From Lachnospiraceae bacterium (GTDB lineage Bacteria; Bacillota; Clostridia; Lachnospirales; Lachnospiraceae), in the NCBI GenBank assembly GCA_024698145.1, contig JAILRO010000012.1, forward strand, positions 1-64,000: DNA of 64,000 bases, given 5' to 3'. Positions 1,958-62,542 of the stretch are shown here, in pieces. Under the pieces are notes generated by a model. It made no database searches, was not told the DNA's origin, and worked only from the letters and a program-made list of their open reading frames with translations. Within the stretch, counting starts at the first letter, position 1. Every line of letters begins with the position of its first letter. The translations under genes and the position numbers were made by a program.

Positions 1958-3979
1958 ATGAGAAAGTTGTCATTTTGTCTATGGAAACATAAGAGGAATA
2001 TTTTGAATTGGTCAGGTTTATTGGTATTTTTATCGCTTATTGTTGGGTATACATATTATACATATATTACCTATGTTGTGCCAACATCCAAAAGTACTAC
2101 TACAAATCCCGTGATTGATAACTCGGCGTTTGAATCTTCAATGGTAAAAATCTCTGACGATTATACAGTAAAACAATCATTTGTGGGTGGAGAAACAGGG
2201 GTATCAGAAATAAAACTGAAGTTTTTAGTTAAAGACGAATCTAAATACGGAAGAATAAAAATACGTTTAGTAGACTCAGATTCAAGTATTGTAATTGATG
2301 AGTGGAATATAAAAAGTAAAAAAATAAAAGAGGAAACGGTTCTCAAATTACATACTGAAATCTCTAATGCAGCGGGGAAAAAATTCATGTTACAAATTGA
2401 GGGCAACAATTTATCTGGCGATGAAATATGCTTGTATATCTCAGATCAGGATTCTTATGGTGATGGCTGCATGTATTTGGATGATAATCAATTAATTGGT
2501 GATTGTGTCTTTATTGTTGTTCCTGCCACGGTAGATAACAGTTTTATTACAAAGCTATTTTGTTTTGTTTTTGCGTTACTACTTTTTCTTTTGTGTTTTT
2601 TGTGGGGAACAGAGAATACAAAAAAAAGCATTTCGATAGAAAATGTGTTTCTGATTTCCGCGAGTATTATAGGAATGGCATATTTGCTTATTTTACCAGC
2701 ATATTCTGTGCCAGATGAAGGAACGCATTTTTCGACGGCATATGAAATATCAAATAGGATAATGAAGTTTGATAAGCAGCTGGAATCGGATGATTTATAT
2801 GTGATTGGAAGAGATGGGGATGTCTCTAAGGACATAAATTATATGACAACTTTAACAACATATAGATACATATATAATAATCTTTTTAATTCAGTAGACA
2901 ACGAGGCTTTTAACAACAATGTTTTGAGGGAAAAAAGGATTAAAAGGTTTCCTATGATTGCCCACCTTCCACAGGCTTTGGGAATTACAATAGCGCGTGC
3001 TTTTAATTTGAGTTATTCATTAGTGTTATTTATGGGACAGTTTTTTTCACTCATAAGTTTTGTTATATTGACATATTTGGCAATTCGAGTTACACCAATA
3101 GGAAAGCACATTTTTTTTGCAGTTGCAGGTTTGCCGATGATATTACACGAAGCTACATCTTTTTCGTATGATGGAATTATATGCGGTTTTGCTTTTTTGC
3201 TTATTGCATACTTATTAAAACTAATATACGACAATAATTCAATCAGATTAAGAGATTATATATATACGTTTTTGGTTGCCATAATTCTTGCACCGTGTAA
3301 AATGGTATATAGTTTTATTTCTGTTATTGCTTTTTTGATACCTCACAAGAGATTCAATAATAAAAAAATTGAGTATTTTTTTAAGTTTGTAATAGTGATT
3401 GTTTCTATTTCGTATGCTGTTTGGTATAATATGGGAGAGGTTTCTAACACAACTGCAGGAGTACATATGGTAGAGTGGGCAGGTGAAGAAGGGTATACTG
3501 TTTCATATTTATTACATAATATAGATAAGGCCATTATGATTTATGTTACAACTATTCATGAGCAGACGGGGTATTTTATTGATGGCATGCTTGGAGGGTC
3601 TCTTGGATGGTTTGACGTGGATGTTCCAATTGAGTTAACAATGGCATCTATACTGTTACTGATGATATCCATGAATGAAAAAGAATATGTTTATATAAGA
3701 TATAGAGAAAAATTGATGTTTTGTATAGTGTTTTTGGTTATATCGGTTTTGATTTTTGCAACAATGCTTTTGGCATGGACACCAATTTCTAGAGACTCAA
3801 TTGTTGGAGTTCAAGGGAGATATTTTATACCAGTATTGCCAGTACTGTTATTGCCGTTTATAAATAGTGTAACTCCACAAAAATCAATTAAATATAAAAA
3901 AGCATTAGTTGTTGGAAATTGCATTTTGAATTATTTAGTCTTGCTTAGAGTTTTTGAAATAAATGTTTCAAGAATATGA
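1958..3979 (+). CDS. DUF2142 polytopic membrane protein, long form with extracytoplasmic insert
   Basis: This 673-residue protein has a good SD (AAGGAG about 1947) before ATG 1958. One membrane segment (about 18-38) is followed by roughly 160 mostly soluble, beta-rich residues, then about ten membrane segments. DUF2142 hallmarks are visible: 'YSVPDEGTHFSTAYEIS' near residue 248, an acidic loop motif, and 'GVQGRYFIPVLPVLLLPF' near the C-terminus. DUF2142 proteins belong to the GT-C-like membrane group and occur in polysaccharide and teichoic-acid clusters; a lipid-linked-sugar transferase role is likely but unproven. A shorter paralogue follows at 4623 and lacks the soluble insert. An IS3 relic lies on each side. 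Confidence 0.75.
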   Translation: MRKLSFCLWKHKRNILNWSGLLVFLSLIVGYTYYTYITYVVPTSKSTTTNPVIDNSAFESSMVKISDDYTVKQSFVGGETGVSEIKLKFLVKDESKYGRIKIRLVDSDSSIVIDEWNIKSKKIKEETVLKLHTEISNAAGKKFMLQIEGNNLSGDEICLYISDQDSYGDGCMYLDDNQLIGDCVFIVVPATVDNSFITKLFCFVFALLLFLLCFLWGTENTKKSISIENVFLISASIIGMAYLLILPAYSVPDEGTHFSTAYEISNRIMKFDKQLESDDLYVIGRDGDVSKDINYMTTLTTYRYIYNNLFNSVDNEAFNNNVLREKRIKRFPMIAHLPQALGITIARAFNLSYSLVLFMGQFFSLISFVILTYLAIRVTPIGKHIFFAVAGLPMILHEATSFSYDGIICGFAFLLIAYLLKLIYDNNSIRLRDYIYTFLVAIILAPCKMVYSFISVIAFLIPHKRFNNKKIEYFFKFVIVIVSISYAVWYNMGEVSNTTAGVHMVEWAGEEGYTVSYLLHNIDKAIMIYVTTIHEQTGYFIDGMLGGSLGWFDVDVPIELTMASILLLMISMNEKEYVYIRYREKLMFCIVFLVISVLIFATMLLAWTPISRDSIVGVQGRYFIPVLPVLLLPFINSVTPQKSIKYKKALVVGNCILNYLVLLRVFEINVSRI

Positions 3980-4622: not shown

Positions 4623-6179
4623 ATGAAAGTTGATTTTTTTTTGTGGAAAAATAAAAACAGTATATTGAAATGCTTGGGAGGATTTCTTATTCTTGTTGTT
4701 CTCGCGGGATACTCGTTCTATACTTATAAGAATCTGAGTGATGTATTAAAAAAAGATAATACTTTTATTCTTAATTTGTTTACAGGCTTATGTGCTTGGA
4801 TGTTGTTTTTTATCGTGTTCCTGTATTATTGTGTTAATAAGAAAAAACATTTGTCTATAGAAAAAGCATTTGTCATTTCGATGTTTTTTTTAGGCTTTTC
4901 TTATTTAATTGCCACACCGGCATTTTCTGTACCAGATGAGTTAGTGCATTATGGAACGTCATATAGATTATCAAATCAATTAATGGGTATTAAAGACACT
5001 AATGAAGATTATGCGTTATGTAGAAGTTGTGATACTGCACCGGAAATAACACATATTACAACGCTCCAAACATACAAGTATTTTTATAATAATGTGTTTA
5101 AAAAACCTTTAGAAAATGATGAGGTTGTAAATAGTCCGGAAGTAATTAAACATATAAGTGTTATTTCCCATCTTCCACAAGCAATAGGAATAACAATTGC
5201 AAGGCTATTTCATTTTAGTTATGCAGGATTATTGTATACAGGACAATTCTTTACGTTGATAGCTTACACTTTATTAACGTATTTTGCAATTAAGATTATA
5301 CCTTTCGGTAAGAATATTCTATTTGTCATTTCGGGTTTTCCGATTGTTTTACACGAGGCCACATCTTATTCATATGATGCAATTGTTTATGGATTATCTT
5401 TCTTGTTGATTGCCTATATTATAAATCTTGTTTACGTTGAGAAGAGAATAACGATAAAGCATTGTGTGGTTTCATTTATTATTGCAATGGCTCTAGCACC
5501 ATGTAAAATGATTTATGCATTTATCACATTGCTGGTTATTCTTATTCCAAATAAGAAGTTTAAGGACAAATGGTATGCAAGAGTATACAAGTTCTTCATG
5601 ATTGTTTGTTCGGTGCTTTATGCGTTCATTTCTAATATGGGTGAGGTATCTAATACATCATCGGGAAAACACATTGTTGAATGGGCCGGTGAAGAAGGAT
5701 ATACGGTTTCGTATGTATTTCACCACATTAGCGGAATAATAAAGCTTTATGTGGCCACATTTCACGAACAGATGGGATATTATTTGGATGGGATGCTAGG
5801 CGGATTGTTGGGATGGCTGAATATTGATATTCCTGTTGAACTAACAATGTGTTCATTGGTACTTTTAGTTTTGTCTATTCGAGAAGAAAGAAAATATAAT
5901 ATAAAGCTTACGCACTCTTTGTTGTACATAGCTGATTTCTTTTTTATATCTCTTTTGGCTTGTGCAACAATGTTGTTGGCATGGACACCATTGTCATATC
6001 CATTTATTGCAGGTGTTCAAGGTAGATATTTTATACCTGTATTACCTTTGTTTTTGCTACCGTTTATCGATGCCACAAAGGAACAGGAGGAATGTACAAG
6101 AAAGGTGTTAATAATTGGTAATTGTATTGTTAATTATTTGGTTATCTTACGTATTATAGAGATTAATGTTATGAGATAG
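4623..6179 (+). CDS. DUF2142 polytopic membrane protein, short form
   Basis: This 518-residue paralogue of the gene at 1958 has the same membrane core: 'FSVPDELVHYGTSYRLSNQL', 'ISHLPQAIGITIARLF', 'HEATSYSYDA', 'EWAGEEGYTVSYVFHHISG' and 'GVQGRYFIPVLPLFLLPF'. It lacks the ~155-residue extracytoplasmic insert of the long form, going from membrane segment 1 almost directly to segment 2. About eleven membrane segments are predicted by eye. The function is inferred as for the paralogue: a GT-C-like membrane protein in wall-polysaccharide assembly. The upstream relic and the parallel arrangement point to an ancestral tandem duplication. The SD before ATG 4623 is poor (GGATGGTGAGTAA). Confidence 0.75.
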   Translation: MKVDFFLWKNKNSILKCLGGFLILVVLAGYSFYTYKNLSDVLKKDNTFILNLFTGLCAWMLFFIVFLYYCVNKKKHLSIEKAFVISMFFLGFSYLIATPAFSVPDELVHYGTSYRLSNQLMGIKDTNEDYALCRSCDTAPEITHITTLQTYKYFYNNVFKKPLENDEVVNSPEVIKHISVISHLPQAIGITIARLFHFSYAGLLYTGQFFTLIAYTLLTYFAIKIIPFGKNILFVISGFPIVLHEATSYSYDAIVYGLSFLLIAYIINLVYVEKRITIKHCVVSFIIAMALAPCKMIYAFITLLVILIPNKKFKDKWYARVYKFFMIVCSVLYAFISNMGEVSNTSSGKHIVEWAGEEGYTVSYVFHHISGIIKLYVATFHEQMGYYLDGMLGGLLGWLNIDIPVELTMCSLVLLVLSIREERKYNIKLTHSLLYIADFFFISLLACATMLLAWTPLSYPFIAGVQGRYFIPVLPLFLLPFIDATKEQEECTRKVLIIGNCIVNYLVILRIIEINVMR

Positions 6180-6213
6180 TTTTTTAATCTGATAGATAAG
6201 GATAATTTGGCAT

Positions 6214-7254
6214 ATGAAAAAAGATTCACTTGTTGAAAAAATAGGTATAAATAGTAATAACGTTAATTTGGTTAGGTTTGTTGCGGCACTCACGGTTATT
6301 TTTAGCCATGCATTTTATGTTAGCGAAGCAAAAGAAGATCCACTGTCTGTTCTTACAAAAGGGCAAGTTAATATGGGTGGAATTGCTGTAGGTGTGTTTT
6401 TTTTCTTGAGCGGACTGTATGTATCAAAATCATTCTATAAATCAGGTTGTGATGTAAAGAATTATATGATAAAGAGATGTAATAGAGTTTTCCCTCAGTT
6501 GTGGAGCGTTGTTTTTATCTCTGTTTTTATTTTAGGAGCGTTATGTACGACTAATAATATAGTATCTTATTTTACTAATCGTGGTACATATCTATACCTA
6601 TTGAATGGTTTTTTGATTCCAATTCATAACTTACCGGGTGTGTTTTCCGGTAATGTGTATATTAGTACGGTGAATGGTCCGCTGTGGACAATGCCGGTTG
6701 AATTCTTTGGATATATTCTGATAGTAGTAATATATTTGATTGCAAAAAAGATAAGGCTTAAGTCTGTTAGTTTTAAAAGTTTATTTTTACTATGTATGAC
6801 GGGACTCTTGGTTTTGTTATTTGCTTTTTCTTATATAATCAAAAGTTCTTTTCTTGTTGCTGCAGTCCGTGCATTTTTATTTTTTGTAATAGGGGTATTG
6901 TTTTATTGTTACAAGGATTCAGTCAAGTATTCGCGGGTTTTGTTTTTTGCTTTTGTTTGTATGCTTGTGTTGTTAGTAAAACTTCCTGTATATAATTTTG
7001 TGTTGATAATATGTTTGCCGTATGTTATCTTAGCAATATCATTGTTTGTTAGACAGATTCCTAAAACGTGGGATATGTGGAAATGCTCCTATGAAATGTA
7101 TTTGGTTGGATGGCCGATACAACAGGTGATAACAATGATGTTTGGTGGAAAGATGTCTGCGCTTATGAACTTTGTACTGACGGTTCCGTTTGATTTGATA
7201 ATTGCGTATTTATTATATAAATCGTTTGAATATATACAATCAAATAATAAATAA
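6214..7254 (+). CDS. Acyltransferase family 3 protein (surface polysaccharide O-acyltransferase)
   Basis: This 346-residue protein is typical in length for acyltransferase-3. The N-terminus carries 'NLVRFVAALTVIFSHAFYV' (residues about 14-32), with the His that is catalytic in this family, then 'GGIAVGVFFFLSGLYVSKSF', the usual helix-2 motif, and 'NRVFPQLWSVV'. Around ten membrane segments follow. The predicted role is transfer of acetyl or another acyl group to a membrane-exposed glycan. Unlike the acyltransferase at 494 this gene is intact. It lies 34 bp after the short DUF2142 gene and 34 bp before a GT2 gene, consistent with one transcript. Confidence 0.8.
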   Translation: MKKDSLVEKIGINSNNVNLVRFVAALTVIFSHAFYVSEAKEDPLSVLTKGQVNMGGIAVGVFFFLSGLYVSKSFYKSGCDVKNYMIKRCNRVFPQLWSVVFISVFILGALCTTNNIVSYFTNRGTYLYLLNGFLIPIHNLPGVFSGNVYISTVNGPLWTMPVEFFGYILIVVIYLIAKKIRLKSVSFKSLFLLCMTGLLVLLFAFSYIIKSSFLVAAVRAFLFFVIGVLFYCYKDSVKYSRVLFFAFVCMLVLLVKLPVYNFVLIICLPYVILAISLFVRQIPKTWDMWKCSYEMYLVGWPIQQVITMMFGGKMSALMNFVLTVPFDLIIAYLLYKSFEYIQSNNK

Positions 7255-55133: not shown

Positions 55134-55820
55134 TTGGGAGGACTATCAGCAAGACTGATGGAAGAGTTGAATTGCGAAACGGTTTTCACAATCCCAATCC
55201 TTGGCGGAATAGACGTATATGAATCTGTTGTTGTAACGTGGATTATTTCCGCAGTACTGATATTGATATCTATATTCTTTACAAGGAATCTAAAGGTTCA
55301 CAATATCAGCAAACGACAAGCAATAGCAGAACTTATAGTTACCAAGCTTATGGGAATGGTTGAAAATATGATAGGTGAGGAAGGCAAAGCTTTTGTTCCA
55401 TATTTATCAACGATTCTTCTGTATATTGGTTTCGCTAACATATTCGGATTGTTTGGTTTTAAACCACCAACAAAAGATCTGAATGTGACAATAGCGTTAG
55501 CACTCATGAGTATTATACTTGTTGAGGCAGCTGGTCTTTACTATCTCGGAATTAAGAGATGGTTACACAAGTTTATAGAACCGGTTGCGATTATGGCACC
55601 GTTTAATATTCTTGATATAGTAACAAGACCAATGTCACTTTGTATGCGACTTTTTGGTAACGTACTTGGTGCATTCGTAATCATGGAGTTACTTAAGATA
55701 GCAGTTCCGGTCATCGTACCGGCGGTGTTCTCTTGCTACTTCGATTTATTTGATGGACTTTTACAGGCGTACGTATTCGTATTCCTGACCTCGTTATATA
55801 TTAGCGAAGCCATAGAGTGA
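55134..55820 (+). CDS. atpB: ATP synthase Fo subunit a
   Basis: About 228 residues with five to six membrane helices. Start TTG 55134 follows AAAGGAG (55119-55125); no better start exists. The proton-path Arg lies in 'SLCMRLFGNVLGAFVIMELL' (about residue 180), and 'FANIFGLFGFKPPTKDLNVT' is the usual mid-protein motif. Subunit a forms the ion half-channels beside the c-ring. It is the first gene of the operon; atpI is not present upstream. A 213-bp gap with element B separates it from atpE. Confidence 0.95.
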   Translation: MGGLSARLMEELNCETVFTIPILGGIDVYESVVVTWIISAVLILISIFFTRNLKVHNISKRQAIAELIVTKLMGMVENMIGEEGKAFVPYLSTILLYIGFANIFGLFGFKPPTKDLNVTIALALMSIILVEAAGLYYLGIKRWLHKFIEPVAIMAPFNILDIVTRPMSLCMRLFGNVLGAFVIMELLKIAVPVIVPAVFSCYFDLFDGLLQAYVFVFLTSLYISEAIE

Positions 55821-55865: not shown

Positions 55866-56005
55866 TTGACACATATTGTGTTGGTTCCATAAGTAGGTGC
55901 TTATAAGCCGCCGGCACTTAACGAGCATGAAATGCGAGTTTAGTACCGCTGCGAGCGCATAGCAGCGAGAGCGTGCCTACGATGGAACAATACAATATGT
56001 GTCAA
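55866..56005 (+). repeat. Structured intergenic element, copy B (candidate RNA element)
   Basis: This sits between atpB and atpE. Outer stem: TTGACACATATTGT... (55866 on) pairs with ...ACAATATGTGTCAA (to 56005), with inner TTCCAT/ATGGAA. Next stem GTAGGTGC/GTGCCTAC; hairpin GCAT-GAA-ATGC flanked by tandem G-A pairs; hairpin CGCTGC/GCAGCG. The core is ~85% the same as copy A while the outer ~18 bp of the closing stem is unrelated in sequence and still complementary. Paired changes seen: GCAT/ATGC vs ACAT/ATGT and T-A vs C-G in the second stem. The element ends 15 bases before the atpE SD. Confidence 0.75.
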
Positions 56006-56033: not shown

Positions 56034-56255
56034 ATGAGTTTATTAGCAGTTGGAGCAGGAATCGCAGTAGTTGGTGCACTTGGTGCAGGTATTGGTATAG
56101 GTATAGCAACCGGTAAGGCAACAGAAGCCGTTGCAAGACAGCCGGAAGCTTCAGGAGATATTCGTACAACACTTATTCTTGGTTGTGCTCTTGCAGAGGC
56201 AACAGCTATTTATTGTTTCGTTATTGCGTTGATGATTATTATCATGTTGCAGTAA
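56034..56255 (+). CDS. atpE: ATP synthase Fo subunit c
   Basis: A 73-residue hairpin of two membrane helices joined by the polar loop 'ARQPEASGDI', which contacts gamma/epsilon. The ion-binding Glu is in 'ALAEATAIYCF' (helix 2). The helix-1 position that is Gln in Na+-binding c subunits is Ile here ('GAGIGIGIATGKA') and the Ser after the Glu is Ala, so H+ rather than Na+ coupling is predicted. Strong SD AAAAAGGAG before ATG 56034. Subunit c is needed in 9-15 copies per complex. Confidence 0.95.
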   Translation: MSLLAVGAGIAVVGALGAGIGIGIATGKATEAVARQPEASGDIRTTLILGCALAEATAIYCFVIALMIIIMLQ

Positions 56256-56287: not shown

Positions 56288-56776
56288 ATGCTGAAAATAG
56301 ATGCATTTAATATAATTGAGATTATAGTTAATCTTCTTGTACTTTTCGTGGCAGTCAAATTACTCTTTTTCAAGCCTATTCTTGCAATTATTGCAAAACG
56401 TCAGGAAGAGGCTGAAACACAGTTTGCTGAAGCTGATAAGAAGAAAGAAGAGGCTGAAGAACTTAAGAGCCAGTATGATACATGCCTTGCAGGTATAGAA
56501 GAAGAGAAGAAGCGTCAGGTCGCAGCTGTTAGAAAAGAGGCAGAGGAAAAAGGCCATAAGATTATAAGTGACGCCAGAGATGAAGCATTTAAGGTACAGG
56601 AGAAAATTGTTGCCGAAGCAAATGCTGAGAAGGACAAAATTATCAAGAGTGCTGAGAAGGAAATTGCAGATATGGTTATGAATGCGACAACAAAGATTGT
56701 TGGAAGCAAGGCCGGTGCAGATCTTGACGCATCTTTATATGATGATTTTTTGGGTAAAGCAGGTGAGGTTAAGTGA
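56288..56776 (+). CDS. atpF: ATP synthase Fo subunit b
   Basis: 162 residues: one N-terminal membrane helix (about 10-30, 'IIEIIVNLLVLFVAVKLLFF') and a long charged coiled coil, ending in 'IVGSKAGADLDASLYDDFLG', the tip that binds delta in normal synthases. It forms the peripheral stalk as a dimer. Its stop (TGA) lies within the alpha-fusion start GTGAGTATG, so the two are coupled. No delta gene follows as it would in most operons. Confidence 0.95.
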   Translation: MLKIDAFNIIEIIVNLLVLFVAVKLLFFKPILAIIAKRQEEAETQFAEADKKKEEAEELKSQYDTCLAGIEEEKKRQVAAVRKEAEEKGHKIISDARDEAFKVQEKIVAEANAEKDKIIKSAEKEIADMVMNATTKIVGSKAGADLDASLYDDFLGKAGEVK

Positions 56777-58518
56777 GTATGGAGGCAGAACTTCGTTATG
56801 TGACCGCGCCTGACGAGAAGCAACTTTCGGGAATTAAGGACTTTTTGAAAAAGGAACTTAATCAGGACGAGGTTAAAATCAATTTAATAGAGGATGCCTC
56901 ACTTAAAAGTGGATTTATTCTTCGTATTGGAACGAAAGAGTATGACTGGAGTGAAAAGGGACGAATTAATCAGCTTAAGAACCGCATCAGTGATGTTGTG
57001 ACGAAGACGGCACAATCCGACCAGGCGGAGAATATCGTCTCTATTCTTCGTGCAAGCATTGATGAGTTTGAACTTGAGGCAAAGACAAGAGAGATAGGTA
57101 TCGTTACATTTGTTGGTGACGGTATTGTAACGGTAGAAGGAATCAATCACTCGTGCTACGGTGAGATTGTTATTTTTGATTGTGGCGTCAAAGGAATGGT
57201 ACAGGATGTTCGTCGTGACGAGATTGGTATTATTCTTTTCGGTCGTGATACAGAAATCTTTGAAGGCAGTCATGTTGTCCGTACAGGCAAAATGGCAGGA
57301 ACACCGGTTGGTGATGCTTTCCTGGGTCGTATTATAGATGCTCTTGGCGCACCGATTGATGGTGCCGGAGAGATTGAGGCAGACGGTTACAGACCGATAG
57401 AGAATCCGGCTCCCGGTATTGTTGACAGACTTTCTGTTGCAGTTCCTATGGAAACAGGTATATTATCGATAGACTCAATGTTCCCGATAGGACGTGGACA
57501 GCGTGAGCTTATTATCGGTGACCGCCAGACAGGTAAGACTTCAATTGCTATGGATACCATTTTGAATCAGAAGGGCAAAGATGTCATATGTATATATGTT
57601 GCAATTGGTCAGAAGGCATCTACGGTTGCAAAGCTTGTTAACACATTTAAGAAGAATAATGCAATGGATTATACTGTTGTTGTTGCGGCTACGGCATCAG
57701 ATCCGGCACCGCTTCAATATATTGCACCTTATTCAGGTACGGCTCTTGCAGAGTATTTCATGTATCAGGGTAAGGATGTTCTTATTGTTTATGATGATCT
57801 TAGTAAGCATGCGGTTGCATATCGTGCAATCTCATTGTTGCTTGAGAGATCGCCGGGACGTGAGGCATATCCGGGTGATGTATTCTATCTTCACTCAAGA
57901 CTTCTTGAGAGATCTTCGAGACTTACACCGGAAGCAGGCGGCGGTTCGATTACCGCACTTCCTATCATTGAGACACAGGCGGGCGATGTATCCGCTTATA
58001 TTCCGACTAACGTAATTTCCATTACAGACGGTCAGATATATCTTGAGAGTGAGCTTTTCAATGCAGGTCAGCGTCCTGCGGTAAATGTTGGTCTTTCCGT
58101 ATCCCGTGTTGGTGGTGCTGCACAGACTAAGGCTATGAAGAAGGCTGCGGGAAGTGTGCGTATCGATCTTGCACAGTATCGAGAGATGGAAGTATTTACA
58201 CAGTTTTCATCTGATCTTGATGAGAATACGAAAAAACAGCTTGCTCACGGACGTGCGCTTATGGAATTACTTAAGCAGCCGCTTGGTAATCCGTTCTCTA
58301 TGGCAGAGCAGGTAATCACACTTACTGCTGCTAATGCGCATATTTTCTCTGATGTTCCTATTACGGAGATTAAGAAGTTCCGTATAGATTTGCTTGAGTA
58401 TATGGCAAGTGAGCATCCGGATATTTATAGTGAGTTAGAGTTCTCAAAAGATTTGACAGATGATACAAAAGAATCAATAGTTAAGGCGTGTGAGGAGTTT
58501 AAGAAAGCACGCTCATAA
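56773..58518 (+). CDS. atpA: ATP synthase F1: delta C-terminal domain fused to subunit alpha
   Basis: The 581-residue protein is ~80 residues longer at the N-terminus than usual alpha. Residues about 5-75 match the C-terminal domain of delta/OSCP ('LSGIKDFLKKELN', 'ASLKSGFILRIGTKEYD', 'EKGRINQLKNRISDVV'; compare the E. coli delta end with its 'G..IR.GD..ID.S..GRL..L'). Residues ~81-102 align with the alpha N-terminal helix, and a full alpha follows: P-loop 'GDRQTGKT' (249-256), 'YDDLSKHAVAYRAISLLLER', 'VSRVGGAAQTKAM'. The start is GTG 56773 or ATG 56779. The delta N-terminal six-helix domain is absent and no atpH is in the operon, so the fusion probably replaces delta. Confidence 0.93.
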   Translation: MSMEAELRYVTAPDEKQLSGIKDFLKKELNQDEVKINLIEDASLKSGFILRIGTKEYDWSEKGRINQLKNRISDVVTKTAQSDQAENIVSILRASIDEFELEAKTREIGIVTFVGDGIVTVEGINHSCYGEIVIFDCGVKGMVQDVRRDEIGIILFGRDTEIFEGSHVVRTGKMAGTPVGDAFLGRIIDALGAPIDGAGEIEADGYRPIENPAPGIVDRLSVAVPMETGILSIDSMFPIGRGQRELIIGDRQTGKTSIAMDTILNQKGKDVICIYVAIGQKASTVAKLVNTFKKNNAMDYTVVVAATASDPAPLQYIAPYSGTALAEYFMYQGKDVLIVYDDLSKHAVAYRAISLLLERSPGREAYPGDVFYLHSRLLERSSRLTPEAGGGSITALPIIETQAGDVSAYIPTNVISITDGQIYLESELFNAGQRPAVNVGLSVSRVGGAAQTKAMKKAAGSVRIDLAQYREMEVFTQFSSDLDENTKKQLAHGRALMELLKQPLGNPFSMAEQVITLTAANAHIFSDVPITEIKKFRIDLLEYMASEHPDIYSELEFSKDLTDDTKESIVKACEEFKKARS

Positions 58519-58532
58519 GGAGGTTTTGACGC

Positions 58533-59489
58533 ATGGCTAATGCGAAGGAAATTTCCAACAGAATAAAGAGTATTAAGGATACCATGAAGATTACGAAAGC
58601 AATGTACATGATGTCCTCTATGAAAATGAGAAAAGCCAGATTGCAGCTTGAAAACACAGAGCCTTATTTCTACGGGATTCAGCAAAATATTTCAGAGATT
58701 TTGCTGCATTTTCCGAGCATTGAGCATTTGTTCTTTGATAACCGTGCTCAAGATCAGAGAGAGTGGGTTAAGAGAAAGGCTGTTATAGTTGTTACTGCCG
58801 ATAAAGGAATGGCAGGTGCTTATAACCAGAGTGTTATAAGAGAGGCAACAGAGTTTTTGAAGCAATGCGAAGATTATAAGTTGTATGTGATCGGTGAGGT
58901 TGGAAGAAGATATTTTTCCGCCAGAGGATATAATATTCAGGAAGGATTTAACTATTCGGTAACCAATCCTTCAATTCACCGTGCAAGGGTTATAACAGAA
59001 CTTATGGTTGAAATGTATAAGCGTGACCAGATAGATAGTGTTCACATTATATATACCAAGATGGTCAACAGTATGAAATCAGAGGTTGATATTCATCAGG
59101 TGCTTCCGCTTAAGACGAAGGATTTTGTTAAGCAGGAGTTGGCGGAAAGAACAGGAGACGGAGCTTTTGATGACAGCGATTATGTTGTTGATCCTTCACC
59201 GGAAAAAGTCGTAGAGAATCTGGCATACAACTATGTGACGGGTATTCTTTACGGTGTTTTGGTAGAGTCTTATGCAAGTGAAGAGAACTCGCGAATGATG
59301 GCGATGCAGGCAGCAACCGATAATGCGGAGGCAATGCTTCATGACCTGTCGATAGAGTTTAACAGAGTAAGACAGGCGGCAATTACTCAAGAGATAACCG
59401 AGGTTATCGGTGGTGCGAAGGCTCTTAAGAAAAAGAAAGAAAAAGCAAAAGCGGCAAGGAAAGCGTTAGCGGCTAAGGCAGAAGCGTAG
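58533..59489 (+). CDS. atpG: ATP synthase F1 subunit gamma, with Lys/Ala-rich C-terminal tail
   Basis: 318 residues. N-terminal 'KEISNRIKSIKDTMKITKAM' and C-terminal 'FNRVRQAAITQEITEVIGGA' are standard. The normal gamma ends right after this motif, inside the alpha3beta3 cavity, but here a further ~20 residues follow, almost only Lys, Ala, Arg and Glu ('KKKKEKAKAARKALAAKAEA'). SD AAGGAGGT before ATG 58533. It is the rotor shaft of the complex. The tail could reach the top of F1, where the delta-like domains sit. Confidence 0.93.
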   Translation: MANAKEISNRIKSIKDTMKITKAMYMMSSMKMRKARLQLENTEPYFYGIQQNISEILLHFPSIEHLFFDNRAQDQREWVKRKAVIVVTADKGMAGAYNQSVIREATEFLKQCEDYKLYVIGEVGRRYFSARGYNIQEGFNYSVTNPSIHRARVITELMVEMYKRDQIDSVHIIYTKMVNSMKSEVDIHQVLPLKTKDFVKQELAERTGDGAFDDSDYVVDPSPEKVVENLAYNYVTGILYGVLVESYASEENSRMMAMQAATDNAEAMLHDLSIEFNRVRQAAITQEITEVIGGAKALKKKKEKAKAARKALAAKAEA

Positions 59490-60911
<1,422 letters not shown>

Positions 60912-60937: not shown

Positions 60938-61354
60938 ATGAATACATTTACTCTTAAAATAATTGCATGTGACCGTATATTTTATGATGGCGAGTGCGAG
61001 ACACTTGTTTTTCCCGGTGCTGACGGCAAGATGGGAATTATGGCCAATCATGAAAGTATGACAACGGCGGTTGAAATAGGTGAGATTAAGTTTCGTACAC
61101 CTGATGGAGAGGAGCATGTTGCTATCACCTCTGACGGAATCCTTAAGGTGGATAATAATCAGGTGGATATGCTGGTGTATTCCTGTGAAAAACCGGAGGA
61201 GATTGATGAGTTCCGTGCCAAAGAGGCTAAGGAACGTGCTATGGAGCAGCTCGCAGAAAAGCAGAGCGTTATGGAGTACCATATTTCGAGGGCTTCTCTT
61301 GCCAGAGCTATGGCGCGTCTTTCGGGAAGAGACAAATACATGGGTGGCAGGTAA
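60938..61354 (+). CDS. atpC: ATP synthase F1 subunit epsilon
   Basis: 138 residues: an N-terminal beta-sandwich ('FTLKIIACDRIFYDGECETL', 'GADGKMGIMANHESMTTAVE') and a C-terminal two-helix part ('ERAMEQLAEKQSVMEYHISR', 'LARAMARLSG'), which is the regulatory helix in bacterial epsilon. Good SD GAAAGG before ATG 60938. It ends three bases before a GH25 gene. Confidence 0.95.
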   Translation: MNTFTLKIIACDRIFYDGECETLVFPGADGKMGIMANHESMTTAVEIGEIKFRTPDGEEHVAITSDGILKVDNNQVDMLVYSCEKPEEIDEFRAKEAKERAMEQLAEKQSVMEYHISRASLARAMARLSGRDKYMGGR

Positions 61355-61357
61355 TAT

Positions 61358-62542
61358 ATGAGCAAAAATACAAAAACACTGGTTTTTTATCTGGTTGGAA
61401 TCTTTATAATGATTGCACTATTGATATTTATTATCTTTGGTGTCAAATCAGTTCTTAATGAGAACGCCAAGAATGATGATGTAGCAATGGCTTCTGAAGA
61501 ACCTTCGACAGAGACTACAACTTTTGAAAAGACAACCGAAGCAATAACAACAGAGATGACAACCGAAGAAGTGACAGAAGAAATGACTACGGAAGAAGTT
61601 GAGGAACTGCCACTTATAGAACTTGGTGTTGCGGATGATGTGACACCACCTGTATTTCTGGGGTGTCCGGAAACAATTGAGCTTAAGGTGGATCAGGCGT
61701 TTGTTGCTGATGCATATGTAAGTTTTGCAGATGACATAGACAGAAATCCCGTACTTACAACAGAAGGAACGGTAGATTATACGGTGCCGGGTAATTATCC
61801 GATAAAACTTACACTTACAGATGAGGCGGGACATTCTACTGTCAAAGATGTAACGGTTAAGGTTGTTGAGGAATATACAGCGTATAATCCGACGGAGAAA
61901 CCAAAGGAGGATTTTTCAACCTTTGCATCAGTTTATAAGAATGACAACACAACTCTTGGAATCGATGTTTCGAGGTGGCAGGAGGATGTCGACTTTAACC
62001 TTGTCAAACAGGCAGGCTGCGATTTTGTAATAATACGTATCGGTGGCTTTGATGAAGGAAGTACATATACTGACAGGTATTTTAAGGATAATATTGCCAA
62101 TGCCAAAGCAGCGGGACTTAAGGTGGGCATTTACTGGCACGCAGAGGAGAGTAACGTAGATCAGGTCAGAGAAAATGTTCGTTATATGTTGGATATTCTT
62201 GGTGGAGAATCACTTGATTTCCCGATTGCCTATGACTGGGAAGATTTCTCTCATTTTCAGGATTATCATATGAGCATTAACGATCTTAATAATTGTCTTG
62301 AGGTGTTCTACGGTGAGGTTAAGAAGTACGGTTATGATGCCTGCATATACGGAAGCAAGAACTACCTTGACAGTGTATGGAAGAACATGGGCGAACATCC
62401 GGTATGGCTTGCCAATTACGTTGACAATACAACATATTCCGGTCAGTATTATATGTGGCAGCAGTCCAATACAGGTAGAATCCCCGGTGTTAACGGTGAT
62501 GTGGATTTAAATATTCTATATAATGACAGATATGTAAGATAA
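61358..62542 (+). CDS. GH25 lysozyme with membrane anchor and DUF5011/Ig-like domain
   Basis: 394 residues: N-terminal membrane helix (about 8-30), Thr/Glu-rich spacer (about 45-85, 'ETTTFEKTTEAITTEMTTEE'), a beta-sandwich resembling DUF5011 ('DVTPPVFLGCPETIELKVDQ', 'NYPIKLTLTDEAGHSTV'), and a GH25 muramidase (about 190-394) with 'LGIDVSRWQEDVDF', 'RIGGFDEGSTYTDRYF', catalytic Asp/Glu in 'PIAYDWEDFSHF', and 'MWQQSNTGRIPGVNGDVDLN'. It cuts peptidoglycan at the cell surface. The start is three bases after the atpC stop with no own promoter seen, so it is probably transcribed with the ATP synthase. Confidence 0.9.
   Translation: MSKNTKTLVFYLVGIFIMIALLIFIIFGVKSVLNENAKNDDVAMASEEPSTETTTFEKTTEAITTEMTTEEVTEEMTTEEVEELPLIELGVADDVTPPVFLGCPETIELKVDQAFVADAYVSFADDIDRNPVLTTEGTVDYTVPGNYPIKLTLTDEAGHSTVKDVTVKVVEEYTAYNPTEKPKEDFSTFASVYKNDNTTLGIDVSRWQEDVDFNLVKQAGCDFVIIRIGGFDEGSTYTDRYFKDNIANAKAAGLKVGIYWHAEESNVDQVRENVRYMLDILGGESLDFPIAYDWEDFSHFQDYHMSINDLNNCLEVFYGEVKKYGYDACIYGSKNYLDSVWKNMGEHPVWLANYVDNTTYSGQYYMWQQSNTGRIPGVNGDVDLNILYNDRYVR

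Follow-up and report, generated by a model that had tools for sequence, protein, structure and literature searches.

The closest described system is an engineered Bacillus PS3 FoF1 (9JC1; Ueno et al., 2025, PMC12229609), in which delta residues 2-104 were removed and the remaining C-terminal domain (CTD) was joined to the N-terminus of alpha, giving a deltaDeltaN-alpha chain. In the passages of that paper that describe the enzyme, up to three peripheral stalks and a-subunits attach to one F1; particles with 0, 1, 2 and 3 stalks made up 15, 51, 26 and 8%, respectively, with an average of 1.26 stalks by cryo-EM, H+/ATP was 5.8 vs 3.0, ATP was synthesized at low driving force, and the delta N-terminal domain (NTD) was identified as the limiter of stalk number. 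The same passages discuss a natural deltaDeltaN-alpha operon of Acidaminococcus fermentans (also UniProt G4Q3K6 and A0A1I2C5T3) and name Acidaminococcus as a natural case that is likely, though unverified; by that text description, through which we compared it, it shares with our locus a delta-alpha fusion without the delta NTD. Full-length delta-alpha fusions are not mentioned in those passages, and the titles and abstract openings of open-licence PMC articles reported no other natural multi-stalk or delta-alpha fused enzyme. A looser parallel is the mycobacterial b-delta fusion (7jg5_d), in which delta is likewise covalently joined to another stator subunit, named as of the b type, whereas in our locus the delta CTD is joined to alpha. 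The kind of enzyme described here was already proposed in 2025 (PMC12229609), and ours is a new member of it. What appear to be new are its spread within a family, the existence of full-length intermediates and the repeated losses of the NTD.

The window, a stretch of 64,000 nucleotides from a bacterium related to rumen Lachnospiraceae, contains on its forward strand a single operon encoding the F1Fo subunits a, c, b, alpha, gamma, beta and epsilon. The genes follow the order that an earlier sequence-only reading had given: a, c and b come first, the fusion stands next without an intervening atpH, and gamma, beta and epsilon close the operon. The operon comprises atpB (subunit a, 228 aa, 55134-55820, PF00119 E 4.1e-41), atpE (subunit c, 73 aa, 56034-56255, PF00137 E 2.5e-19), atpF (subunit b, 162 aa, 56288-56776, PF00430 E 5.1e-13), the delta-CTD/alpha fusion (581 aa, 56773-58518), atpG (gamma, 318 aa, 58533-59489, PF00231 E 8.5e-92), atpD (beta, 471 aa from a TTG, with an in-frame ATG at codon 10, 59496-60911, PF00006 E 2.1e-75) and atpC (epsilon, 138 aa with both domains, 60938-61354, PF02823 and PF00401). 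Rather than a separate two-domain delta, the operon has a delta CTD only, in fused form.

According to the ORF listing the fusion begins with a GTG. Residues 3-71 (56779-56985) matched positions 103-171 of the 172 in the PF00213 OSCP profile (E 8.4e-9, 36.2 bits, the cut-off being 22.3 bits), which bears out the claim that the first ~75 residues are the CTD of delta/OSCP; the assignment is also supported by an EYDWS..GR..QL signature, by the junction alignment described below and by the predicted fold. In the AlphaFold2 model (mean pLDDT 73.1, with parts of the nucleotide domain below 50) this N-domain has the order strand-helix-strand-strand-strand-helix, with 10-residue pLDDT means of 72-88, and is followed at residues 85-97 by the alpha N-terminal helix, which we place at approximately residues 84-100 (57022-57072) from the model and from the conservation of its hydrophobic stripe in the alignment. 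The beta-barrel, nucleotide-binding and C-terminal domains of alpha (PF02874, PF00006, PF00306; residues 105-576, 57085-58500) are all present after the OSCP part, so that a complete alpha, its N-terminal helix included, is joined in frame at its N-terminus to the delta CTD, as had been proposed. Directly 5′ of the GTG lies a TAA codon in the same frame, and the start codon and the atpF stop codon overlap in the sequence GTGA; therefore, no delta NTD could be encoded in frame upstream. With the OSCP match confined to profile positions 103-171, the NTD is absent from both the fusion and its operon, which supports the earlier suggestion that fusion was accompanied by loss of the six-helix domain. 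Judged by its sequence, the window gene is a natural deltaDeltaN-alpha fusion.

Comparison with the engineered chain agrees with this assignment. In a sequence search 9jc1_I aligned continuously with the window fusion (14-578 to 15-574, E 1.4e-183), and among the matches listed it was the sole chain spanning both the delta and the alpha parts; three plain alpha chains scored higher, over the alpha part alone. Foldseek placed 9jc1 chains I, K and J at ranks 1-3 for the window model. The two chains are 580 (9JC1) and 581 (window) residues long and can be aligned with one gap of 3 residues, located at the junction. They differ in the signature, which is DWS in the window and DGS in 9JC1, and the 9JC1 enzyme was designed and had its epsilon C-terminal domain removed, whereas the epsilon of the window is complete. 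The mycobacterial 7jg5_d gave a weak profile match (E 0.0084).

To place the gene in context, we fetched 80 loci, one each from 80 distinct genomes (loci are labeled L and genomes G, G000 being the genome of the window). The alpha frame was fused in 79 of them, including L054, where b is in the same frame, and L090, which is cut by a contig end; in the one exception, L047, the CTD is on b. Gene order matched that of the window wherever the contig reached, other than in L047 and L054, and a separate delta gene was not found in any of the 80 loci. Between the last codon of b and the P-loop of alpha lie 237-295 codons in 46 of the 48 NTD-less loci (the other 2 had no b within reach), whereas 31 full-length loci have 331-347 codons there; the NTD-less fusions thus leave no room upstream for a hidden NTD. 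A few Pfam matches (e.g., in G076 and G304) did suggest an upstream NTD; these cross stop codons, b is too close in all 46, and we rejected this possibility. In a junction alignment of 39 diverse sequences (A1, the window and 38 others, omitting the divergent L049, L050, L080, and L081), the E-Y-D-W-S..G-R..Q-L signature was conserved, and the alpha N-helix retained its hydrophobic stripe in 85-100% of the NTD-less rows (26 in number) and 77-100% of the full-length rows (13). Retention of the stripe suggests that the helix probably still has a partner when the NTD is gone. In the four omitted fusions, inspected by eye, the helix pattern was not clearly kept. A structure model of a full-length fusion had six NTD helices followed by the CTD; we used its delta part alone because confidence in the whole was low (mean pLDDT 62.5).

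Within the genus, 16 of 26 genomes carried the fusion, 5 with a full-length delta (frames of 674-684 aa) and 11 with just the CTD or little more; the remaining 10 had no delta other than a full-length one encoded separately. These absences are weak, as 10 of the 26 genomes are <90% complete or >5% contaminated. We then searched 396 genomes of the family, each ≥90% complete, and searched again two subsets: 77 genomes that for the most part had a single weak match (run together with 3 genus members, and leaving out 7 others), and 80 with two or three matches (1 was left out). Fusions proved common in the family: judged by frame length, at least 42 of the 396 genomes had CTD-only fusions (the b-delta-alpha frame of G079 included; the G099 fusion, cut by a contig end, stands apart from these) and at least 26 had full-length delta-alpha fusions. 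Gamma genes were tallied in 58 genomes, namely G077, where the CTD is on b, and 57 that have an alpha fusion. A single gamma together with an NTD-less fusion as the sole OSCP match was found in 16 genomes, each ≥90% complete (G237, G205, G219, G082, G336, G231, G216, G076, G208, G241, G135, G059, G089, G117, G146, and G270; the OSCP match of G270 falls just under the Pfam cut-off and is recovered by A1 at 1.6e-32), and 10 genomes had one gamma and a full-length fusion only. Given the one gamma and the lack of any other OSCP match, the fused enzyme is the only F-ATPase detected in those genomes, and the 16 NTD-less cases show that such an enzyme does not require a complete atpH. Fusions also occurred in two other families of the order (L122-L126 and L128) and, among 398 genomes of the phylum, in six additional families, one of them within the class. 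The fusions elsewhere in the phylum (L152-L160) may or may not have arisen separately. Outside the order the signature read DWS in L151 and DGS, DAS or DGT in the other readable fusions.

The genome of the window (71 contigs, 99.85% complete) yielded two OSCP matches at E ≤ 0.001, one in the fusion and one in a full-length delta encoded on contig C7 (PF00213 1-172, E 7.2e-40). Contig C7 holds a second, complete and conventional F1Fo operon that contains this atpH, and the genome has two gamma genes. The claim that there is no separate delta gene thus stands for the window operon and fails for the genome, and the atpH found elsewhere, which the sequence-only reading would have held against itself, belongs to a different ATP synthase. 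The sodium-ligand residues of subunit c are a Q in helix 1 and an S or T after the key E. By alignment, the c subunit of C7 has Q-E-T at positions where that of the window has I-E-A, lacking the sodium ligands; we take the former to indicate a sodium-type and the latter a proton-type enzyme. A conventional enzyme with a sodium-type c, as far as its residues indicate the ion, therefore coexists in the cell with the fused one. I-E-A was found in 38 of 62 NTD-less operons (the remainder being 20 M-E-T, 2 M-E-S, and 2 Q-E-A), in 29 of 31 full-length fusion operons and in 12 of 12 unfused operons of the DWS type, and conventional operons had Q-E-T in 18 of 22 cases and E-E-T in 4. Enzymes with fusions are not all of the proton type, since three fusions outside the order have Q-E-S. 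In 21 of the 62 CTD-only operons the c frames were 117-194 codons by length; the long c frames of L046, L052, and L099 have a signal-peptide-like N-terminus, and subunit a of these loci is very divergent. RnfD is present in the genome of the window, and a profile search of that genome with PF00346 gave no match to a complex-I/Ech large subunit, so that Ech is not an evident source of a proton gradient, a point against the proton-enzyme reading. An Rnf/Ech pairing has been predicted for butyrivibrios in PMC4478896; with PF00346 unmatched, we dropped Ech as the partner of the window enzyme.

Two trees were built by a quick method. In the alpha-core tree (122 sequences, N-terminal region excluded, 6 duplicate loci omitted), fused and DWS-type unfused sequences formed one group of 95 rows with an SH-aLRT of 100; five sequences with long branches (L049, L050, L080, L081, and L047) fell outside this group, and the conventional ones were more distant still. 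To account for the CTD-only label, 20 changes were required on this tree, at least 8 of them forced by starred branches, and 18 changes, at least 12 of them forced, on an alpha+beta tree (LG+G4, 119 rows, 13 long-branch or near-duplicate sequences omitted). If the NTD cannot be regained and the tree is rooted on L119/L120 (no bootstrap), the minimum number of NTD losses was 20 on the full tree, 15 when branches with SH-aLRT <95 were collapsed and 7 when those <99 were collapsed; 18, 13 and 5 of these fell inside the main clade and two of each count in outside lineages. Recombination between fused copies could inflate these counts. Under these assumptions, the trees imply that the NTD was lost repeatedly after fusion, suggesting that its loss is tolerated or favored. 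A fusion-first order, with the NTD lost afterward, fits the five full-length fusions of the same genus and the case of L026, an NTD-less fusion in which, compared with its full-length sister L024, delta helix 1 is all that remains of the NTD. The unfused deltas of L109-L118, L121, and L127 lie directly before alpha or overlap it, and their alphas are nested in the fused clade; these loci may reflect either several fusions or the re-splitting of a fusion.

Taken together, we lean toward the view that this is a proton-type F1Fo in which delta was fused whole to the alpha N-terminus and then lost its NTD, and which most likely carries more than one stalk on average. Each of the three alphas would then bear its own stalk-binding delta CTD, processing permitting, and each CTD, freed of the NTD, could in theory bind one b2 dimer along with an a subunit. 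By analogy with the engineered enzyme, the assembled complex would carry more than one peripheral stalk on average, which would raise the H+/ATP ratio and allow ATP to be made at low proton-motive force. We give about even chances to the idea that H+/ATP gearing is changed here through the number of stators rather than the size of the c-ring. Multi-stalk assembly is the best-supported, and unproven, reading of the mechanism; we infer the stoichiometry, H+/ATP ratio, ion and physiological role of the natural enzyme. How a single stalk could be attached to three CTDs had been seen as a puzzle, the premise of which may be wrong, since the engineered layout takes up to three stalks in the account of PMC12229609.

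The most substantial alternative, which we consider possible and clearly the less probable of the two, is that all three alphas carry the CTD and only one binds b2, either because a and b are limiting or because the c-ring and a subunit admit one stator, and that fusion merely secures the attachment of F1 to the stator. The window operon and most fetched loci have a single gene each for a and b, and expression could thus limit the stoichiometry, which counts against multi-stalk assembly. The modest occupancy of the engineered enzyme itself, with its mean of 1.26 stalks and just 8% of particles bearing three, points the same way. In ordinary enzymes, the delta NTD sits on the pseudo-threefold axis. 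Three NTDs of a full-length fusion presumably cannot all occupy this axis, and such fusions are common enough (at least 26 of the 396 family genomes) to suggest that a fusion can live with redundancy and does not by itself need multi-stalk assembly. However, extra stalks do bind in the engineered enzyme without the NTD, as described in PMC12229609, and the repeated NTD losses after fusion also weigh against a single stalk. Alternatively, internal initiation or proteolysis could yield approximately one fused and two free alphas and thus one stalk per F1. Proteolysis is compatible with the sequence, and when we scanned the junction stretch of 86 fused genes for in-frame ATG, GTG or TTG codons, 54 had at least one. 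The other 32 had none, however, and the best internal codon had a Shine-Dalgarno energy ≤ -5 in 27% of the 86 genes; the corresponding share was 29% for single non-start codons of that stretch (n = 2743) and 78% for presumed operon starts (n = 331), for which we took each frame's first ATG. In L027, a gene of the window type, the one GTG candidate had an energy of only -0.3. No conserved internal start was found in the junction stretch of these 86 genes, and the comparison of codons and Shine-Dalgarno energies does not support internal initiation as a conserved mechanism, which we therefore reject. For this reason all three alphas should, as predicted from these genes, carry the delta CTD, and we regard a mixed population as improbable.

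Still less credence is due to two further explanations. The fused enzyme might borrow the full delta of C7 for its NTD, given that a complete atpH is present in the same genome; yet in the 16 relatives named above the NTD-less operon holds the only gamma and the only delta match, so borrowing is not needed, and we reject it for these relatives and consider it very improbable overall. Although many relatives are metagenome assemblies, the recurrence of the fusion in 16 of 26 genus genomes, and of the fused alpha frame in 79 of 80 loci from distinct genomes, led us to reject an assembly or sequencing artefact joining delta and alpha, to which we assign a negligible chance. Natural multi-stalk assembly could be tested directly, as could gearing by stator number, in the many species of the family that are available: the layout of the window is shared by at least 42 of the 396 genomes and is, in 16, that of the only F-ATP synthase. 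One genus offers species with and without the NTD for comparison, and the domain repeatedly lost is the one said in PMC12229609 to limit the number of stalks.

Several loci and features deserve separate mention. In L054 (2629-4989, G079:C33), b, the delta CTD and alpha share one 787-codon frame, which includes a charged linker, and b was not found separately in the locus. This is possibly a b-delta-alpha triple fusion, known from one genome of its genus; a search with this one protein gave no second match in its own genome, the sole genome of that genus in the comparison. In L047 (G077:C15), the CTD is joined to b rather than alpha at 2593-3285, and gamma and beta share one 767-codon frame at 4814-7114, which could be due to misassembly or to the absence of a stop codon, as a true fusion of these subunits would be mechanically puzzling. 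The full-length frame of L071 (G271) has 758 codons, ~80 above most others, with the extra length after the P-loop. In the window itself, the region between atpB and atpE contains a strongly folding element (55866-56005, z -7.9) with 18-nt inverted ends, which is single-copy within the window and gave no Rfam match that reached the gathering score. The genes for a and c are separated by 213 nt in the window and by 63-351 nt in five loci of the same genus. Directly after atpC, at 61358-62542, lies a gene for a GH25 lysozyme-like protein with an Ig-like domain.
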